DNA from: Chloroflexota bacterium
GTDB lineage: Bacteria > Chloroflexota > UBA11872 > VXOZ01
DNA: 44,404 nucleotides
NCBI GenBank assembly: GCA_022824225.1
Contig: JAJEAH010000035.1
Span: 1-44,404 of the forward strand
Reading direction: 5' to 3'
Shown piece after piece: positions 24,030 to 32,233 of the stretch (positions within the stretch are counted from its first letter, which is position 1; every line of letters begins with the position of its first letter). The position numbers and the translations under genes are program-made. Under the pieces are notes generated by a model. The model ran no database searches, was not told the DNA's origin, and saw only the letters and a list, made by a program, of their open reading frames with translations.

Positions 24030-24623
24030 CTAGTCACTCAACTGCCGCCACACATGGACCACGCGCTGCAGCGTGGTCAGCAGCGTCAAGACGGCCAACA
24101 GCCAGATGACGATCTTCAATACGATGAGCAACGAGACCGGCAACAGCAAGGCTATGCCAAGGGCGATAACGCGTTCCGGACGCTGGAACCAACCGATGCT
24201 GCAGGAAAGCCCCAGGCCCTCCGCGCGCGCCCGCGTGTAGCTCACCATCTGAGACCCTATCAGCATGACGGCCGTGCCCACAACCATCGGGTTGTCCTGG
24301 CGGCTGAGAAAAAACCCGATCAAACCCAGGCAGATTGCAGCCTCAGACAGCCTATCCAACGTCGAGTCAAAGAAGGCGCCGAAGGTTGTGCCACCATCGC
24401 TCACGCGCGCCAACGCGCCGTCCACCATGTCGAACGCGCTGGCCACCAATACGAGGATTGCGGCCCACGGCCACACCCCTTGCCAAACGGCCGCGGCGGC
24501 CACGAGGCTCAACATGAAGCCGAACGTCGTAACCGTGTTCGCTTGAATCCCAAGTCGGGCCAGCGGGCGTGCCAGTGATTCCATTGCGCCCTGTGCCCAA
24601 TCGCGAACCCCAGGATGTATCAT
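24030..24623 (-). CDS. CDP-alcohol phosphatidyltransferase, probable phosphatidylinositol-phosphate synthase
   Basis: Integral membrane enzyme of 197 aa that joins a CDP-diacylglycerol lipid to an alcohol. It carries the complete family motif D-G-x2-A-R-x8-G-x3-D-x3-D, as VDGALARVSDGGTTFGAFFD then STLD, near residue 67, with several hydrophobic helices after it. The family includes PGP synthase, PS synthase and PIP synthase. Sequence alone does not settle the alcohol, but location at the end of a run with ino1, a PimA-like transferase and a PatA-like acyltransferase points to inositol-1-phosphate, as for mycobacterial PgsA1. The PimA-like gene ends 69 bases upstream. Confidence 0.85.
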   Translation of the reverse strand: MIHPGVRDWAQGAMESLARPLARLGIQANTVTTFGFMLSLVAAAAVWQGVWPWAAILVLVASAFDMVDGALARVSDGGTTFGAFFDSTLDRLSEAAICLGLIGFFLSRQDNPMVVGTAVMLIGSQMVSYTRARAEGLGLSCSIGWFQRPERVIALGIALLLPVSLLIVLKIVIWLLAVLTLLTTLQRVVHVWRQLSD

Positions 24624-24692
24624 GGTTCCGCTATCTCCATTAGCTTGCCGCCCGGTCTTGAACGACTCCGTCTGCCCGGGAAGAATCCAGCT

Positions 24693-25883
24693 CTACTTCC
24701 GCCGTCGCGGAATCCTCGCCCAGTTATACCGTCGCGTACGCGGCGTCTTGCGCGCAATGCACTCCTCGTAATAGGAGACAATCTGCGTCGCGACTTTTTC
24801 CCACGAATAGTCCTTGGCTGCCGCCAAGCCGCTCGCTCCCGCATCCTCCCGCAGCGACTCCTGTTCGAGAAACCGCAATAGGGCGCGGGCCAAGGCCCCG
24901 TCATCCTCCGGGGGCACCAGCAGCCCCGCGCCGGTGTCTGCCAGAACGCCATGGTAGCCCTCGATGTTGGAGGCCACGACCGGCCTACCGGCTGCCATGG
25001 CTTCCAGGAGCACAATGCCCTGGCTCTCGCCGCCGGTGGATGGCGCGCAAAAGACGTGGCACGACTTGTAGTACCGCACTTTGTCTTCCCTGCTCACGAA
25101 CCCCACGAATACGACGTTGGCGAGTCCCAATTGGGCAACCTTCTTCTCATAATCGGCGCGTTGTTCCTCCGTGAAGGCTCCCACCACGATGAGGCGCACC
25201 GGTTGGGGGCAGTGCCGCTGCACCGTTTGCAGCGCCTGCAGGAGATAGGTCAAACCCTTGCGCTTCTCAAGCCTTCCCACGAACAGCACGTTGAGCATGC
25301 CGTCGTTCAAGTGGGAGAATGGCGCCAGGCCGCCCTGAAACAAGCCGGCATCGATGCCGTTGGGAATAATGCGGTACTGGGCCGGAAAGTAGCGCTCGAT
25401 CAACTGGCGGGCCGCGGCGGAAACGGCGATGTGTCCTTGCAGCCGGCTGAAGTATCGCTTGAGGAGCGGTTTGCCGTAGAGATAGGCAAAGTGCGAGCGC
25501 CGGTACGTGTGAAACGTGCCGACGTTTACCGTGCGGGCATGCCGCAAGACCGTTATCGGCAACGCCGGCGCCAACGGTTCATGCAGGTGTACCACGTCGA
25601 ACCGCTCCTGGGCAAGGATCTGCTTTACCTGGCGCGAGAGCGTGAGCGAAAGCGAAATGCGGGCCACAGACGCATTCGTCGGGACTCTAACGATTGTCTT
25701 GCCGACGCGGTAGAGATTGTCGTACGGCAGTTCCTCTTCCGGTTGAGACGATGGGGCGAGGATGCGCACCTCATGGCCCATCTCCCGAAATTGCACATTG
25801 AGGTGACTGATGTGCTCAGTCACACCGCCGGGATATGCATAGTCGTAGGGCGAAACGAGGGCGATCTTCACGTTTGGCCTCAC
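24693..25883 (-). CDS. GT4 glycosyltransferase, PimA-like
   Basis: A 396-aa GT-B glycosyltransferase. The N-terminal IALVSPYDYAYPGGVTEHI matches the acceptor-side start of PimA, which adds the first mannose from GDP-mannose to phosphatidylinositol on the inner membrane face. The C-terminal nucleotide-sugar domain has VLFVGRLEKRKGLTYLL, VVFVGFVSREDKVRYY and the E-x7-E region GGESQGIVLLEAMAAGRPVV. The GTG at 25883 overlaps the PHP gene stop by 4 bases; a second GTG at 25871 would give a MKIALVSPYD start and is equally plausible. The basic tail (RRYNWARIPRRRK) could contact the membrane. The mannose acceptor role is inferred from the cluster. Confidence 0.87.
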   Translation of the reverse strand: MRPNVKIALVSPYDYAYPGGVTEHISHLNVQFREMGHEVRILAPSSQPEEELPYDNLYRVGKTIVRVPTNASVARISLSLTLSRQVKQILAQERFDVVHLHEPLAPALPITVLRHARTVNVGTFHTYRRSHFAYLYGKPLLKRYFSRLQGHIAVSAAARQLIERYFPAQYRIIPNGIDAGLFQGGLAPFSHLNDGMLNVLFVGRLEKRKGLTYLLQALQTVQRHCPQPVRLIVVGAFTEEQRADYEKKVAQLGLANVVFVGFVSREDKVRYYKSCHVFCAPSTGGESQGIVLLEAMAAGRPVVASNIEGYHGVLADTGAGLLVPPEDDGALARALLRFLEQESLREDAGASGLAAAKDYSWEKVATQIVSYYEECIARKTPRTRRYNWARIPRRRK

Positions 25884-26617
25884 TTCTGCGGAACAAACGC
25901 CTGCCCCAGCCAGTCCGCATACCGCCGCATCTTGCGCCGGAAGTAGGTCATTGATTCATCAAAGTCGAAGTAGCCCCCCCGCGCGAGCGTGGCGCGCTGC
26001 CCGATTGCCGCGCGGAGATCGGCTGCCGTAGAACCCGGAAAGAGCGTGTGCGCCTTGCCAATCCCTTCCAAAATGTGCGCGTCGCTGCCGCCAACCTGGG
26101 CGATACCCAGCCTCTGCTGGATTTCCAGAGCCTTCTCATAGCTCATCTTGCCGGCGGGACTGGCATTCATGACTTCGATGGCGTCGAAGGTGTAGCCCTT
26201 GCGCGCCAGCCGCTTGAACGTAAACTGCCGGAAACTGAGGGTCAGCCAGGACATGGGATGGGGCACGATGACGACTCCTCCCTGCTCTCGAATCGCGTCG
26301 ATGGTCCATTCGGCGCTGCGCAAGACGGGGAATGCCGTCTCTACCCACAAGCCGACCAGATGCCCGTCAAACGTCGACACTTCCACCCCCGGTATCACTT
26401 CCACGCCGGGGAATTGCGCGGCAAGGTCCGCGGCCTCCAGCGCGCCGTGAATCTCATCGTGGTCGGTAACGGCCAACACCGCAATATCCGTCTCCGCGCT
26501 CACGTATTGCAGCATCTGGTAAGGCGAAAACGTGCCGTCGCTGGCATTGGTGTGAATGTGCAAGTCCGCCTTGCTCATGGCAGGGGGGTTCGCATGTGTT
26601 CCCAGATACCGGCGCAT
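25880..26617 (-). CDS. PHP-domain metal-dependent phosphoesterase
   Basis: A 245-aa PHP-fold protein, the group containing histidinol phosphatase and the TrpH/YciV 3',5'-nucleoside bisphosphate phosphatases. Metal ligands are all present: H20 and H22 in DLHIHTNASDG, D27, VTDHDE (D52, H53), E79 in IPGVEVS, H120 in VPHP, and D179/H181 in GGSDAH. It is therefore probably an active phosphatase or nuclease. It sits inside the inositol-lipid cluster, overlapping the PimA-like gene by 4 bases. In the PIP route a phosphatase is needed to turn phosphatidylinositol-phosphate into phosphatidylinositol, so this protein is a candidate; a housekeeping nucleotide role is the main alternative. An ATG at 26578 is a possible later start. 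Confidence 0.83.
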   Translation of the reverse strand: MRRYLGTHANPPAMSKADLHIHTNASDGTFSPYQMLQYVSAETDIAVLAVTDHDEIHGALEAADLAAQFPGVEVIPGVEVSTFDGHLVGLWVETAFPVLRSAEWTIDAIREQGGVVIVPHPMSWLTLSFRQFTFKRLARKGYTFDAIEVMNASPAGKMSYEKALEIQQRLGIAQVGGSDAHILEGIGKAHTLFPGSTAADLRAAIGQRATLARGGYFDFDESMTYFRRKMRRYADWLGQAFVPQK

Positions 26618-26632
26618 GCCTAGCCTATCCCT

Positions 26633-27544
26633 TTACATCCGGCGGGCAGGGGGTTCCGCCACGGACAATGGCCGGAGCCACATGGGCCGAAACATGTACC
26701 ACTGTTCGGGGCACGATCGAATGATCTCCTCCAATGTGTCCGTAAGCACTTGCATAACGACTTGAAGGTCACGCTCCTCATCGTCGCTGCGGACCGCATA
26801 GACCGGCGGATAGACGGTAACCGACAGACCGTTGTCCTCGCCCCGCCGGCACTGGCACATTACGAGCGGCGCTCCCGTTCGCAAGGCGAGCGCCGCCGGG
26901 CCCACCGGCAAAAACGCTTTGCTGCCAAAGAACGTGACCGGCACACCGCGCCCCTCCATGGGTCGGTCGAACAGCAAGCCAACCACGCCATTTGCCTGCA
27001 ACTGCCGCAACATCGCGCGCAGCCCTCGCTCTACCGGCACGGTATCGAAACCCAGCCGCTGCCGCACGCGCCCAACAACCCAATCCAGTGCGCCGTTGCT
27101 GAACGTGTCCACCGGGATGAGCACCGGGAAACGCTGCGCCAACATCGCGCCGCCGAGATCCCAAAGGCCAAAGTGGCCGGATACGAATATCGCGCCTTTG
27201 CCGGCCTGCAGCGCTTCGGTGAGGTGTTCTTCGCCGTGGAACTCCCGCACGCGCCGCTGCAAGCGCTCGGGGGTAATGCGCAGCCAGCCCAAGAAATCAG
27301 CCAGGTACCAACCGTAATTCTCCATGGACTTCTTAGCCAGCGCACTCGTCTCGGGATCCTCAACCGGCCGGCCAAGCACGTGGGACATGTTGGCTACGGC
27401 GTTCTCTCGTCCCGTACGCCACAGGGCAAACGCCCCTCGCGCCGCCAGGCTTGCGACGCCATACTTCACCGTCTGCGGTATTGCGCTGTCGAGAGCGGCG
27501 CCCGTCAGCAACAAGAGCCGTCCCGTAAGGCCGGCCAACGACAT
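26633..27544 (-). CDS. LpxL/PatA-like phospholipid or glycolipid acyltransferase
   Basis: A membrane-associated acyltransferase of about 303 aa in the lauroyl/myristoyl family. Catalytic H-x4-D is present in SGHFGLWDLGG; further family marks are GLLFDRPMEGRGVPVTFFG and PVGPAALALRTGAPLV, with EQWYMFRPMW near the end. In mycobacteria the homologue PatA acylates the mannose of phosphatidylinositol mannosides and sits between pgsA1 and pimA. The open frame extends to 27598 inside ino1; I chose ATG 27544, four bases after the ino1 stop, because MSLAGLTGRLLLLTG starts the expected N-terminal helix. The PHP gene begins 15 bases downstream. Confidence 0.87.
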   Translation of the reverse strand: MSLAGLTGRLLLLTGAALDSAIPQTVKYGVASLAARGAFALWRTGRENAVANMSHVLGRPVEDPETSALAKKSMENYGWYLADFLGWLRITPERLQRRVREFHGEEHLTEALQAGKGAIFVSGHFGLWDLGGAMLAQRFPVLIPVDTFSNGALDWVVGRVRQRLGFDTVPVERGLRAMLRQLQANGVVGLLFDRPMEGRGVPVTFFGSKAFLPVGPAALALRTGAPLVMCQCRRGEDNGLSVTVYPPVYAVRSDDEERDLQVVMQVLTDTLEEIIRSCPEQWYMFRPMWLRPLSVAEPPARRM

Positions 27545-27548
27545 AGCA

Positions 27549-28673
27549 CTAACCCGATTCCGAACCCACCTCGCCCTGGAGAACGTGCTCCGCGTCATTG
27601 CCGGCTCCGGCGATGAACTCTTCCAGCAGCGTCCGCGCGCGATCGTCCGTGATCTGGCGCGGCGGCGACTTCATCAGATACGCCGAAGCGGCCATGAGGT
27701 TGCCGCTCAAGCTGCGGTCCAGCCCAATCTTGGCCAACCGCACGGCGTCGATGACGACACCGGCCGAATTCGGCGAATCCCACACTTCCAGCTTGATTTC
27801 CGCCCGCAACGGCACGTCGCCGAACGACCGCCCATTCATGTAGATGTATGCCCACTTGCGGTCTTGCAGGAACGGCACGTGGTCGCTGGGCCCTATGTAA
27901 ACGTTGTCATCACCGGGGTCGTAGTCCAAGAGCGAGGTCACCGCGTTCGTCTTGGACTCTTTCTTCGAGCTCAGCCGCGCGCGTTCCAGCATATTGAGGA
28001 AGTCAGTGTTGCCCCCCACGTTGAGCTGGCTGGTCTCTTCCAAGCGCACGCCGCGGTCCCGGAACAAGCGCGCCAGCGTGCGGTGCACGATGGTAGCGCC
28101 CACCTGAGACTTGATGTCGTCGCCAATGATGGGCACGCCCGCTTCGTGAAAACGGCGCTGCCAATAAGGCTCGCGTCCAATGAAAACGGGTATGCAGTTC
28201 ACGAAGCCGCATCCGGCCCGCAGCACCTGCTCAACGTACCACTTGGTCGCCTCTTCACTGCCCACCGGCAAGTAGCTCACCACAACGTCGGTGCCGGTGT
28301 CTTTGAGTATGCTCACAATGTCGTCGGTTGCGCCGGGCGCCTTGTGGACGACTTCGCTGACGTAGCGACCGATGCCGTCGTGGGTCATGCCGCGCTTCAC
28401 CGTCACGCCGATCGATTCCACGTCGGCGAACTTGATGGTGTTGTTCGGCGCTTCCCAGATGGCCTCGCCTAAGTCCTTGCCTACTTTATTCTGGTCCACG
28501 TCAAAGGCGGCCGAAAACTCGATATCGCTAATGTGGTAGTCGCCTAGGCGCACGTGCATGAGACCGGGAACGAAATCCGTGTCTGCCGCGTCCCGGTAGT
28601 ATTGCACCCCCTGGATGAGGGATGACGCGCAGTTTCCTACGCCTACAATCGCAACCCGTACCTTACTACTCAC
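27549..28673 (-). CDS. ino1: Inositol-3-phosphate synthase
   Basis: NAD-dependent enzyme that cyclises glucose-6-phosphate to inositol-phosphate, the only de novo route to inositol. The 374-aa protein matches the bacterial/archaeal form: [108 protein letters not shown] and [22 protein letters not shown] start at 28673 has AGGGAGAG about 10 bases upstream. It is the first enzyme gene of the minus-strand cluster and lies 108 bases after the arsR-type regulator, which may control it. Confidence 0.97.
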
Positions 28674-28781: not shown

Positions 28782-29114
28782 CTAAGATGAGCTTGCAGCC
28801 TGCTTCGCAAGCGCCGGATCCGCATCGGCATCCGGTTCCGTTCCAAGCAGGCTATCTAGTCCTCGGGAGACCCGCTGCAGCCCGGAGCGATTGACCGCGT
28901 AGCGGACTTGCCGTCCATCTTTCGTTGCGTCCACCAACCCCGCGCGCCGCAATATGCTCAAGTGCCACGAGAGCAACGGCTGGCTGATATGCACTTGCTC
29001 ACGCAATTCGGTCACCGTCATGGTCTCTCCAGCCGCCAAGAGTTGGAGTATCTCCAAACGCGATCGACTGGCAAGGGCACGCAACTGTCTCCTGAGTTCA
29101 CCAACCGATTGCAT
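28782..29114 (-). CDS. ArsR-family winged-helix regulator
   Basis: A 110-aa DNA-binding repressor. The wHTH region reads LRALASRSRLEILQLLAAGE, TVTELREQVHISQPLLSWHL, SILRRAGLVDATKDGRQVRYAV. No metal-binding CxC pair is present in helix 3 or elsewhere, so it is not a classic arsenic or zinc sensor, and the signal is unknown. It is directly upstream of ino1 on the same strand, so it may autoregulate and control inositol-lipid synthesis. An inverted TCAA-N6-TTGA lies 43 bases before its start. The Ala/Asp-rich tail is probably disordered. Confidence 0.88.
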   Translation of the reverse strand: MQSVGELRRQLRALASRSRLEILQLLAAGETMTVTELREQVHISQPLLSWHLSILRRAGLVDATKDGRQVRYAVNRSGLQRVSRGLDSLLGTEPDADADPALAKQAASSS

Positions 29115-30362: not shown

Positions 30363-31484
30363 ATGCGAGTGGCACTAGCGCACGATTACTTCTATACGTT
30401 GGGTGGCGCAGAGCGGACCGTGGCGGTCATGCACGGGCTGTGGCCGGAAGCGCCGGTCTATACCTCGTTTGTCGATCCCGATAGATTGCCGTTGGACCTG
30501 ACCGGCTGGGACGTGCGCGCATCGTTTCTCCAGCGCGTTCCCAATCCCGGCCACTGGCAGAAGCATCTCACCCCGCTGTACCCCCTCGCGTTTCGCGGCG
30601 TAGACGTAGGGCCCTACGATGTTGTAGTCTCCTCGGCAAGTTTCGCCGCCAAGGGCATTCCCCGCCGCCCGCGCACGTTGCACGTTAGCTACTGTTACAC
30701 GCCGCCGCGTTTCTTGTGGGGCTTGACACCGGCCACTGACCGCGATCGCATCTCCTGGCCGCTCCGCGGCGCGGACGCGCTGCTGCGCCCGCCGCTGCGC
30801 CGCTGGGACCGCTGGGCGGCGGCCCAACCGCACCGGCTCGTCGCCATCTCTCAAACAGTCGCGGCGCGCATCCACCGCATCTACGGCCGGCGCGCCGCCG
30901 TCATCTATCCGCCCGTTGCCACCCGGCGCTTTCATTCGCAACCGACGCGCAATGAGGGGTATTATGTATGTGTCGGACGATTGGAAGCCCACAAACGCAT
31001 CGACCTGGCGATCGCCGCGGCAACGGCAGTCCAAGCCCCGTTGCGCATAGTCGGCGACGGTCCTCTCCGCGACCAACTCTCGCGGGCCGCGCCAACCAAT
31101 GTCTCGTTCTTGGGCTGGCTCTCTGACGAGGAACTCGCGGCACAGCTTGCCGGCAGCCGCGCCCTGCTCTTTCCCGGTGAGGAAGACTTCGGCATCGCCA
31201 TAGTCGAGGCGCTCAGCGCGGGCAAGCCCGTAATCGCTTACGGCAGAGGCGGCGCCACAGAAATCGTCCAGCCGGGCGTGACGGGCGTGCTGGCGCCGGA
31301 ACAGACAGTCGCGGCGTTTGTCCATGCGCTGCGTACCTGTGCGGAAACTACCTATTCCCCCGCCGCCTGCCGCGACTCCGCCGCACAATTCGATGAATCC
31401 GTATTCACCCAGCGTTTCAGGTCCTATGTGGAAGATTCGTGGCTGGAATTCGCTCAGAAACTTCCCCAGAGCCCATCGGCTTGA
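30363..31484 (+). CDS. GT4 glycosyltransferase
   Basis: A 373-aa GT-B glycosyltransferase for an envelope glycan or exopolysaccharide. N-terminal acceptor domain: RVALAHDYFYTLGGAERTVAV, then ISYCYTPPRFLWG-like VSYCYTPPRFLWG. C-terminal donor domain: GYYVCVGRLEAHKRIDLAI, NVSFLGWLSDEELAAQL, and EEDFGIAIVEALSAGKPVIAY with the E-x7-E motif. The VSYCYTPPRF element is common in transferases acting at the start of lipid-linked or secreted polysaccharide assembly; the sugar is unknown. It overlaps the next gene (WecG/TagA type), so both form a unit. Confidence 0.88.
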   Translation: MRVALAHDYFYTLGGAERTVAVMHGLWPEAPVYTSFVDPDRLPLDLTGWDVRASFLQRVPNPGHWQKHLTPLYPLAFRGVDVGPYDVVVSSASFAAKGIPRRPRTLHVSYCYTPPRFLWGLTPATDRDRISWPLRGADALLRPPLRRWDRWAAAQPHRLVAISQTVAARIHRIYGRRAAVIYPPVATRRFHSQPTRNEGYYVCVGRLEAHKRIDLAIAAATAVQAPLRIVGDGPLRDQLSRAAPTNVSFLGWLSDEELAAQLAGSRALLFPGEEDFGIAIVEALSAGKPVIAYGRGGATEIVQPGVTGVLAPEQTVAAFVHALRTCAETTYSPAACRDSAAQFDESVFTQRFRSYVEDSWLEFAQKLPQSPSA

Positions 31485-32233
31485 ATACCGCGCCTCCACG
31501 ATCGGCGTCCGTGCTGGGCGTGCGCGTGGACTGCGTGGAATTCACACAGGCCCTGGCGCGCTGTGTCACACTGCTCGGCGCCGACGGGCCTCACAACGTT
31601 GTAACCCTAAACCCTGAATTCGTCATGCTCGCGCAGCATGATTCGGGCTTTCGCGCGCTGGTGGCGGCAGCCGATCTTGTGGTGCCCGACGGCGCGGGAG
31701 TCGTCTGGGCCTTGCGCCGCCAGGGACTGGAGAATGTCGAACGGGTCACCGGTATCGACCTTATGCGCGCGCTGTGCGTTGAGGCCGCGCGCCTGGGCGC
31801 CTCGGTCTTCTTGCTCGGCGCCGCGCCCGGTGTCGCGGCACGCGCCGGCCGGGTCCTCCAGGAGCAAATTCCAGGACTAGTCGTTGCCGGTTCGGCTGCC
31901 AGCACACCCGCTCCCGAGCACGCGGCCGCCCTCTGCGAGAGGATTCGCGCAACGGGGGCCGACATTCTCTTCGTGGCGTTTGGCTGTCCGGCGCAAGACT
32001 TCTGGATCGAGCGTTTTCAAGCAGAGACCGGCGCGCGCTTGGCCATGGGCGTCGGCGGCAGTTTCGACTACATTTCCGGCAAGGTGCCGCGCGCGCCCCG
32101 CTGGCTGCAGTCCGCCAATTTGGAGTGGCTCTATCGCCTCTTGCGCCAACCGTGGCGGTGGCGGCGCCAGCTAGCGCTCATAGGGTATCTCTGGCAGGTT
32201 GTGCGCCAGCCTCAAGTTGATACGCAAGACTAG
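31439..32233 (+). CDS. WecG/TagA/CpsF-family glycosyltransferase
   Basis: GT26 transferase, about 250-264 aa, adding a second sugar (for example ManNAc or ManNAcA in wall and O-antigen linkage units) to an undecaprenyl-linked sugar on the inner face of the membrane. Signature: VLGVRVDCVEFTQAL, HNVVTLNPEFVMLA, LVVPDGAGVVWALR, ERVTGIDLM, VFLLGAAPGVAARA, LFVAFGCPAQDFWI and GVGGSFDYISGKVPRAP. GTG 31439 (GGAAGA nearby) overlaps the upstream gene by 46 bases; a TTG at 31481 overlapping its stop by 4 bases is an alternative start. Partner of the GT4 gene. Confidence 0.93.
   Translation: MAGIRSETSPEPIGLNTAPPRSASVLGVRVDCVEFTQALARCVTLLGADGPHNVVTLNPEFVMLAQHDSGFRALVAAADLVVPDGAGVVWALRRQGLENVERVTGIDLMRALCVEAARLGASVFLLGAAPGVAARAGRVLQEQIPGLVVAGSAASTPAPEHAAALCERIRATGADILFVAFGCPAQDFWIERFQAETGARLAMGVGGSFDYISGKVPRAPRWLQSANLEWLYRLLRQPWRWRRQLALIGYLWQVVRQPQVDTQD

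Follow-up and report, generated by a model that had tools for sequence, protein, structure and literature searches.

A PHP-family phosphoesterase in an inositol-lipid gene cluster of Chloroflexota is a candidate phosphatidylinositol-phosphate phosphatase

We analysed a stretch of 44,404 nucleotides from a Chloroflexota bacterium (contig JAJEAH010000035.1 of assembly GCA_022824225.1), hereafter the window, which is contig C12 of its source genome (G000; 3.37 Mb, 87 contigs, 95.4% complete). An earlier note, made from the DNA letters alone, had described five genes with overlaps or short gaps as a cluster for phosphatidylinositol (PI) and phosphatidylinositol mannosides (PIM), and had proposed its PHP-family protein as the enzyme that dephosphorylates phosphatidylinositol phosphate (PIP). 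Coordinates, family profiles and motifs confirmed all five genes, on the minus strand and at the positions given there. In the order ino1, acyltransferase (AT), PHP, family 4 glycosyltransferase (GT4) and PIP synthase (PIPS), they form one operon-like run, with a regulator gene before them.

28782..29114, minus strand: winged-helix regulator of the ArsR family, probably the operon's first gene (PF01022; NF033788, 75.3 bits, cut-off 55)
27549..28673, minus strand: ino1, inositol-3-phosphate synthase (TIGR03450, 528.8 bits, below the curated cut-off of 638; best solved relative the inositol-3-phosphate synthase 1gr0, E 7e-145)
26633..27544, minus strand: PatA-like PIM acyltransferase (PF03279, 161.5 bits; HFGLWD, an H-x4-D motif; nearest solved relative PatA, 5oce)
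25880..26617, minus strand: PHP-family phosphoesterase, candidate PIP phosphatase (Pfam PHP and PHP_C; all ligands; predicted PHP barrel)
24693..25883, minus strand: PimA-like GT4, predicted PI mannosyltransferase (E-x7-E; PimA 2gej and 4n9w closest among solved chains)
24030..24623, minus strand: putative PIP synthase, a CDP-alcohol phosphatidyltransferase (NF040950 and NF045883 scores below; 6h53 closest among solved chains)

The intergenic gaps are ~4 bp (ino1 to AT), 15 bp (AT to PHP) and 69 bp (GT4 to PIPS), and PHP and GT4 overlap by 4 bp (GTGA). The AT open reading frame begins at 27598, and its likely true start is the ATG at 27544, just past the ino1 stop. The five genes stand together in all six genomes of the window's genus (the window's included); since they also recur across the phylum, their association goes beyond chance.

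We compared the four partner enzymes with profiles and solved structures. The best solved relative of AT is PatA (5oce, E 1.5e-28), followed by a lipid A acyltransferase (1.2e-11), and its score against the PIM acyltransferase model PRK07920 was 164.3 bits, below the cut-off of 209; it thus combines the three features that we took to mark a PatA-type enzyme, namely PF03279, the H-x4-D motif and PatA as nearest solved relative. GT4 matched PimA at E 5.4e-62 (2gej) and 7.6e-62 (4n9w), with the next non-PimA chain at 3.7e-21. It is closer to solved PimA than to other GT4 enzymes, and from its sequence mannose transfer to PI is predicted. We take the solved chains 1gr0, 5oce and 2gej to be mycobacterial. 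The best solved relative of PIPS is 6h53, a CDP-diacylglycerol-inositol 3-phosphatidyltransferase (PgsA1; E 2.9e-28), an enzyme described as mycobacterial in PMC6506517. PIPS carries the motif D-x2-DG-x2-AR...G-x3-D-x3-D (DMVDGALARVSDGGTTFGAFFDSTLD at residue 65), and has SYTRARAE and QRPERV at the sites where PgsA1 has SYIKARAE and ERPERL.

Against the models for PIP synthase and archaetidylinositol-phosphate synthase, PIPS scored 150.4 bits (NF045883, cut-off 170) and 162.6 bits (NF040950, cut-off 180), missing both cut-offs; the curated NF045883 cut-off was reached in none of 301 genomes of the phylum. Because that cut-off was missed, though the score lies far above that for pgsA, we use the name PIP-synthase-like and word its function as a prediction. 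The pgsA model TIGR00560 gave 31.9 bits only, under its cut-off of 109.1, and a separate pgsA gene elsewhere in the genome scored 131.2 bits against the same model. We therefore rejected a phosphatidylglycerol-phosphate synthase, which the earlier note had named as a refuting case; PIP synthase is the best reading of the cluster transferase. Together, the nearest solved relatives of the four partners support the PIM-type interpretation.

The PHP protein exceeds the cut-offs of PF02811 (28.9 bits), PF13263 (46.9 bits) and NF038032, the CehA/McbA family metallohydrolases (84.5 bits, cut-off 80). Residues H20, H22, D27, H53, E79, H86, H120, D179 and H181, which correspond to metal ligands in the PHP family, are all present. 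In an alignment of the window sequence with 34 linked relatives, the last eight of these were invariant (35/35), and H20, the first histidine of the HxH motif, was kept in 29/35. The six linked relatives with Gln at this site are L198, L202, L213, L215, L226 and L248.

An AlphaFold2 model of the protein (mean pLDDT 93.8) shows a PHP barrel that lies nearest to 3e38, 2anu, 3e0f, 7rty and RNase AM (VIA-align Z 22.6 to 19.3), with the best scores for 3e38 (22.6) and 2anu (21.6). TM0559 (2anu), BVU_3505 (3e38), BAD_1165 (3e0f) and RNase AM (7ug9, 9etk) share the fold over 177-198 residues, but their identity to the window protein is just 19-28%. RNase AM, which acts on RNA according to the entry titles, differs by an insert of ~80 residues between its two matched stretches; the window protein lacks this insert, so its active site is probably more open. 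A short, basic, amphipathic helix closes the chain (residues 219-240; mean moment ~0.4-0.5, net charge +1 to +4), a weak hint that it might help the protein sit on the membrane.

Two other functions were considered for the protein and rejected. A histidinol phosphatase was dismissed at 22 bits against 117 for PRK06361. For a nucleotide phosphatase, the equivalog profiles of 3',5'-nucleoside bisphosphate phosphatase and RNase AM were far from reached (70.2 bits for a cut-off of 400 and 65.3 bits for one of 375, over the first 100 residues only), and the genome holds a separate PHP paralogue of the nucleotide/RNA type at C52:14561 (NF041577, 168.6 bits; NF047791, 169.6 bits; both below cut-off on the 225-residue fragment scanned). 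Although the window protein passes NF038032, this is a broad domain model that covers residues 16-182 only, and the linked PHP of Ktedonobacter racemifer falls below its cut-off at 66.3 bits.

These assignments outline a pathway. Ino1 would convert glucose-6-phosphate to inositol-3-phosphate, which PIPS would join with CDP-diacylglycerol to give phosphatidylinositol 3-phosphate, the PIP in question. The PHP enzyme, with metal ions held by the nine residues named above, would hydrolyse the inositol phosphate monoester to release PI, to which the PimA-like GT4 would add a sugar, presumably mannose, and the PatA-like enzyme an acyl chain. The other enzymes of the route from ino1 through PIP, PI and PIM1 to acyl-PIM1 are present in the cluster, with nearest solved relatives named for those steps; what is left over is a step that hydrolyses a phosphomonoester and a protein that belongs to the phosphoesterases, the only one found within the cluster. 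We consider it reasonably probable that the cluster makes PI and the first PI mannoside, with the PHP protein as its PIP phosphatase, a substrate deduced from its gene context. We see in the cluster a variation on the known PI/PIM pathway rather than a system of a new type.

Next to this assignment stands the idea that PHP takes the phosphate off soluble inositol phosphate and so yields free inositol. The shared operon with ino1 would suit it, and PHP enzymes commonly act on small phosphate monoesters. PIP synthase, however, uses inositol phosphate directly, as described in PMC6506517, so that such an activity would waste its substrate. An inositol-monophosphatase-family (IMPase) gene is already present in the genome, and PHP keeps its place with PIPS where ino1 is out of view (L100, L101 and L237). 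We regard this explanation as very improbable.

To assess how consistently PHP accompanies PIPS, we surveyed the phylum, where the PIP-synthase model matched 289/301 genomes at E<=1e-20. One region of ~14 kb was taken per genus from the best-ranked matches listed, together with four additional genomes from the genus of the window, giving 96 regions from 92 genera, some of them cut by contig ends; PIPS was recovered in 95 (not in L102). PHPs of some kind occur in 289/301 genomes (E<=1e-5), and this near-universality makes a plain presence/absence test uninformative, so we used a profile of the cluster-type PHP. Counts rest on open frames, since greedy gene calling was too noisy in GC-rich loci. 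A cluster-type PHP lay within ~7 kb of PIPS in 26/95 loci, corresponding to 22/92 genera and 12 families, compared to an expectation of ~2% from a rough, uniform scatter of the four PHP relatives in the window's genome that treats genera as independent, which they are not.

Gene order varied among the 26 linked loci. The window's order, ino1-AT(-AT)-PHP-GT4-PIPS, was found in 17, with ino1 out of view in two of these; seven had PIPS(-ino1)-AT-AT-PHP-GT4, and the remaining two were PHP-PIPS pairs with no GT4 or AT in view. PHP immediately precedes GT4, on its 5' side, in 24 of these loci. In a sample of 39 loci centred on PHP matches and biased to high scores, PIPS was present in nine and GT4 in six more, one of these being a truncated match of 55 bits where the contig ends. 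We also scanned named genomes, keeping the best 80 of 473 PHP relatives. Among these, Thermogemmatispora tikiterensis has AT-AT-PHP-GT4-PIPS, and a metagenome-assembled genome (MAG) of Thermoflexus hugenholtzii has ino1-AT-AT-PHP followed by the contig end. A MAG of Candidatus Goldbacteria (L188), which lies outside the phylum, showed a fourth order, PIPS-ino1-AT-GT4-AT-PHP.

A tree of 96 PHPs, which is less circular than the profile, was built by a quick method that left many forks weak, with L224 left out. The label 'linked' (cluster-type ino1, GT4 or PIPS in the locus) needed 3 changes on it, compared to a mean of 30 for shuffled labels, and none of 500 shuffles was as low. Four contig-cut loci (L201, L202, L217 and L245) count as linked via ino1 or GT4 alone, and L185 (AT only) and L194, L223 and L230 (weak GT4, 83-114 bits) were scored free. 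The number of changes to 'linked' stayed at 3 with or without the three rows that have only AT and GT4, and 'free' needed 5. Another tree left out two short PHPs, L105 and L006. The earlier note had named, as part of a refuting result, PHP orthologues that lie mostly outside such clusters; one PHP clade lies mostly within them, unlike the wider PHP family. Linkage and tree both support the note's proposal of PHP as a candidate PIP phosphatase, in our view the best one, with activity on PIP as the predicted function. We lean towards the view that this PHP subfamily serves as PIP phosphatase in some of the Chloroflexota and in at least one genome of Candidatus Goldbacteria.

A more distant PHP subgroup was also found near PIPS in family f3 of the window's class. 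There, a PHP gene on the opposite strand lies within ~2.5 kb of PIPS in 4/4 fetched genera (L064, L076, L082 and L129), at ~20-40 bp in two and ~2 kb in two. This is possibly an independent association. Three of the four genomes (G039, G202 and G245) gave no ino1 match at E<=1e-30, and G039 and G202 carry higher-scoring PHPs elsewhere.

Close linkage to GT4 also fits a role for PHP at another step of the PI/PIM pathway, for example the trimming or turnover of PI, PIM or some lipid by-product by phosphodiesterase or esterase action. The position directly 5' of GT4 in 24/26 linked loci agrees with this, as does family f21, where a second PHP (PHP-B) stays beside AT-AT-GT4 with no PIPS in view (L170, L171 and L173). 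PHP relatives include diesterases, as described in PMC11656708, as well as the CehA/McbA hydrolases of NF038032. PHP-PIPS pairs with no GT4 or AT in view (L100, L101, L237 from Ktedonobacter racemifer, and L251) and PHP clusters that lack AT (L158, L181 and L184) argue the other way. Furthermore, the pathway requires a phosphomonoesterase, and no second one was found in the cluster. We consider a role at another step unlikely. In f21, the first PHP pairs with PIPS in two other genomes. PHP-B also faces an acyltransferase gene in Actinoplanes (L185), and Thermogemmatispora carries both PHP types, one linked (L231) and one not (L210).

Several observations weigh against PHP as the PIP phosphatase. 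The PHP-B loci show that PIPS is not the only gene to which linkage points, and the window PHP falls beside the PHP-B branch in both trees (support 0.915; SH-aLRT 91, not starred). No lipid phosphatase appears among the solved PHP relatives listed, judged by their entry titles. In favour of the assignment, PHP score and linkage went together: of the best 80 named loci, 44 had no less than 4.5 kb of sequence flanking PHP on each side, and among these PIPS lay within 6 kb in 14/15 at >=260 bits vs 1/29 below. This cut, however, was chosen with the data already in view, and linked PHPs had served to train the profile, which makes the split partly circular. The sole exception at or above 260 bits (L189, 264.8), which counts against the assignment, comes from a genome in which no PIP synthase was matched at E<=1e-15.

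Whole groups of genomes fit poorly as well. All seven f25 genomes have ino1 and PIPS and no PHP relative at E<=1e-5, and four of them reached at best 28-47 bits against the cluster-type profile; at f25 loci L273 and L274 we observed a parA-parB-GT4(PimA-like)-PIPS run, with parA and parB scanned against Pfam in L273 only. G234 (f73) has ino1 and PIPS with a best PHP of 28.5 bits, and three f16 genomes (G091, G218 and G260) have both genes and PHPs of only 53-57 bits. Another enzyme must act in these genomes. More broadly, 69/95 PIPS loci have no cluster-type PHP in view, some through contig ends, and an IMPase gene (PF00459) lies at G000:C52:3700-4437, with one such gene in each of the six genus genomes. 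The earlier note's statement that there is no inositol monophosphatase gene is thus correct for the window and not for the genome.

Such cases would fit an unlinked PIP phosphatase, whether IMPase-like, HAD, PAP2 or of some other type, with PHP as a general nucleotidase or a passenger. This explanation is favoured by the PHP-less genomes of f25, f73 and f16, by the IMPase gene and by the many PIPS loci that lack a linked PHP in view. It accounts poorly for a PHP linkage that persists through rearrangements and across 12 families, and a separate PHP of the nucleotide/RNA type is already present in the genome. Among the ten genomes behind named loci, PIPS was present in both of those entered via a linked PHP and in three of the eight entered via an unlinked one, the other five giving no match (E<=1e-15). 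We consider this explanation unlikely. Nine other genomes tested have PHPs of 109-228 bits located elsewhere, which may or may not serve.

A replacement phosphatase for the PHP-less clusters was not found among 18 scanned neighbours, a subset of all neighbours that carries no weight either way. The candidates set aside were ten recurrent neighbours (purA, the DNA polymerase III delta subunit, an ABC ATPase, lgt, ftsK, S1 proteins, truB, rbfA, DUF1611 and one family-less protein) and eight neighbours from f25 and f16 (parA, parB twice, pfkB-type twice, an alpha/beta hydrolase and two family-less proteins).

We then compared the candidate with known systems. In mycobacteria, pgsA1, patA and pimA are adjacent at the head of the PI/PIM cluster. 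The window cluster likewise joins a PIP synthase with PatA-like and PimA-like enzymes, whose nearest solved relatives bear those names; unlike the mycobacterial cluster, it also holds ino1 and a PHP phosphoesterase, with an ArsR regulator before it. Bacterial PIP synthases yield PIP, which must lose a phosphate, and the mycobacterial PIP phosphatase was called 'yet-unidentified' in 2019 (PMC6506517); a 2022 review likewise lists the bacterial PIP phosphatase as unidentified (PMC9385802). The earlier note's remark that this step lacks a firmly assigned phosphatase is incomplete, since PMC9246714 assigns it in Bacteroides to BT_1525, a PgpA-family protein; there, deletion of BT_1525 in Bacteroides thetaiotaomicron led to a build-up of PIP-DAG. 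BT_1525 was the only named bacterial PIP phosphatase that we found in the literature searched. We found no PHP-type PIP phosphatase in the PubMed Central papers searched.

The Bacteroides cluster BT_1522-1526, as described in PMC9246714, resembles ours in combining a myo-inositol-phosphate synthase, a PIP synthase and a PIP phosphatase, but the phosphatase there is PgpA-like, to which the PHP subfamily is unrelated. The PgpA family (PF04608) gave no match in the window's genome at E<=1e-5 and matched 3/301 genomes of the phylum, in a search whose control matched 4 of 14 known genomes. Cluster-type PHPs are also rare in Actinomycetota: at E<=1e-20, 164/198 sampled genomes had no match, 34 matched and 4 exceeded 200 bits. 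PHP is therefore unlikely to be the missing mycobacterial enzyme, and we dropped that idea.

If the assignment is correct, it would fill a named gap and give the PHP superfamily a lipid substrate; to our knowledge this would be its first lipid phosphatase. PI synthesis would then have recruited unrelated phosphatases in different phyla. The candidate addresses PIP dephosphorylation, for which an enzyme has so far been known from few bacteria. The candidate is conserved, its active site is defined, and Ktedonobacter racemifer and Thermogemmatispora tikiterensis are hosts in culture, which makes the step testable.

Acylated PI mannosides are usually regarded as actinobacterial, and the cluster suggests that they may also occur in Chloroflexota. 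Dictyobacter halimunensis is a cultured member of the phylum and presumably a Ktedonobacterium. Its polar lipids, as described from thin-layer chromatography in PMC12453558, include PI as a major component and unidentified glycolipids.

Finally, we examined the surroundings of the operon. In 37/86 ino1-bearing loci (some of them near-duplicates), the 700 bp upstream of ino1 hold an ArsR relative on the same strand. The ArsR protein is thus a conserved candidate for a regulator that may control the inositol-lipid operon. In the alternative gene order, an ArsR-family regulator gene stands before PIPS. From the other side, a gene for a flippase-like membrane protein (PF03706; 22448-23482) converges on the cluster. 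Nearby on the plus strand, a GT4 gene is followed by a WecG/TagA-type glycosyltransferase gene (30363-32233), a pair that hints at a surface glycan locus.

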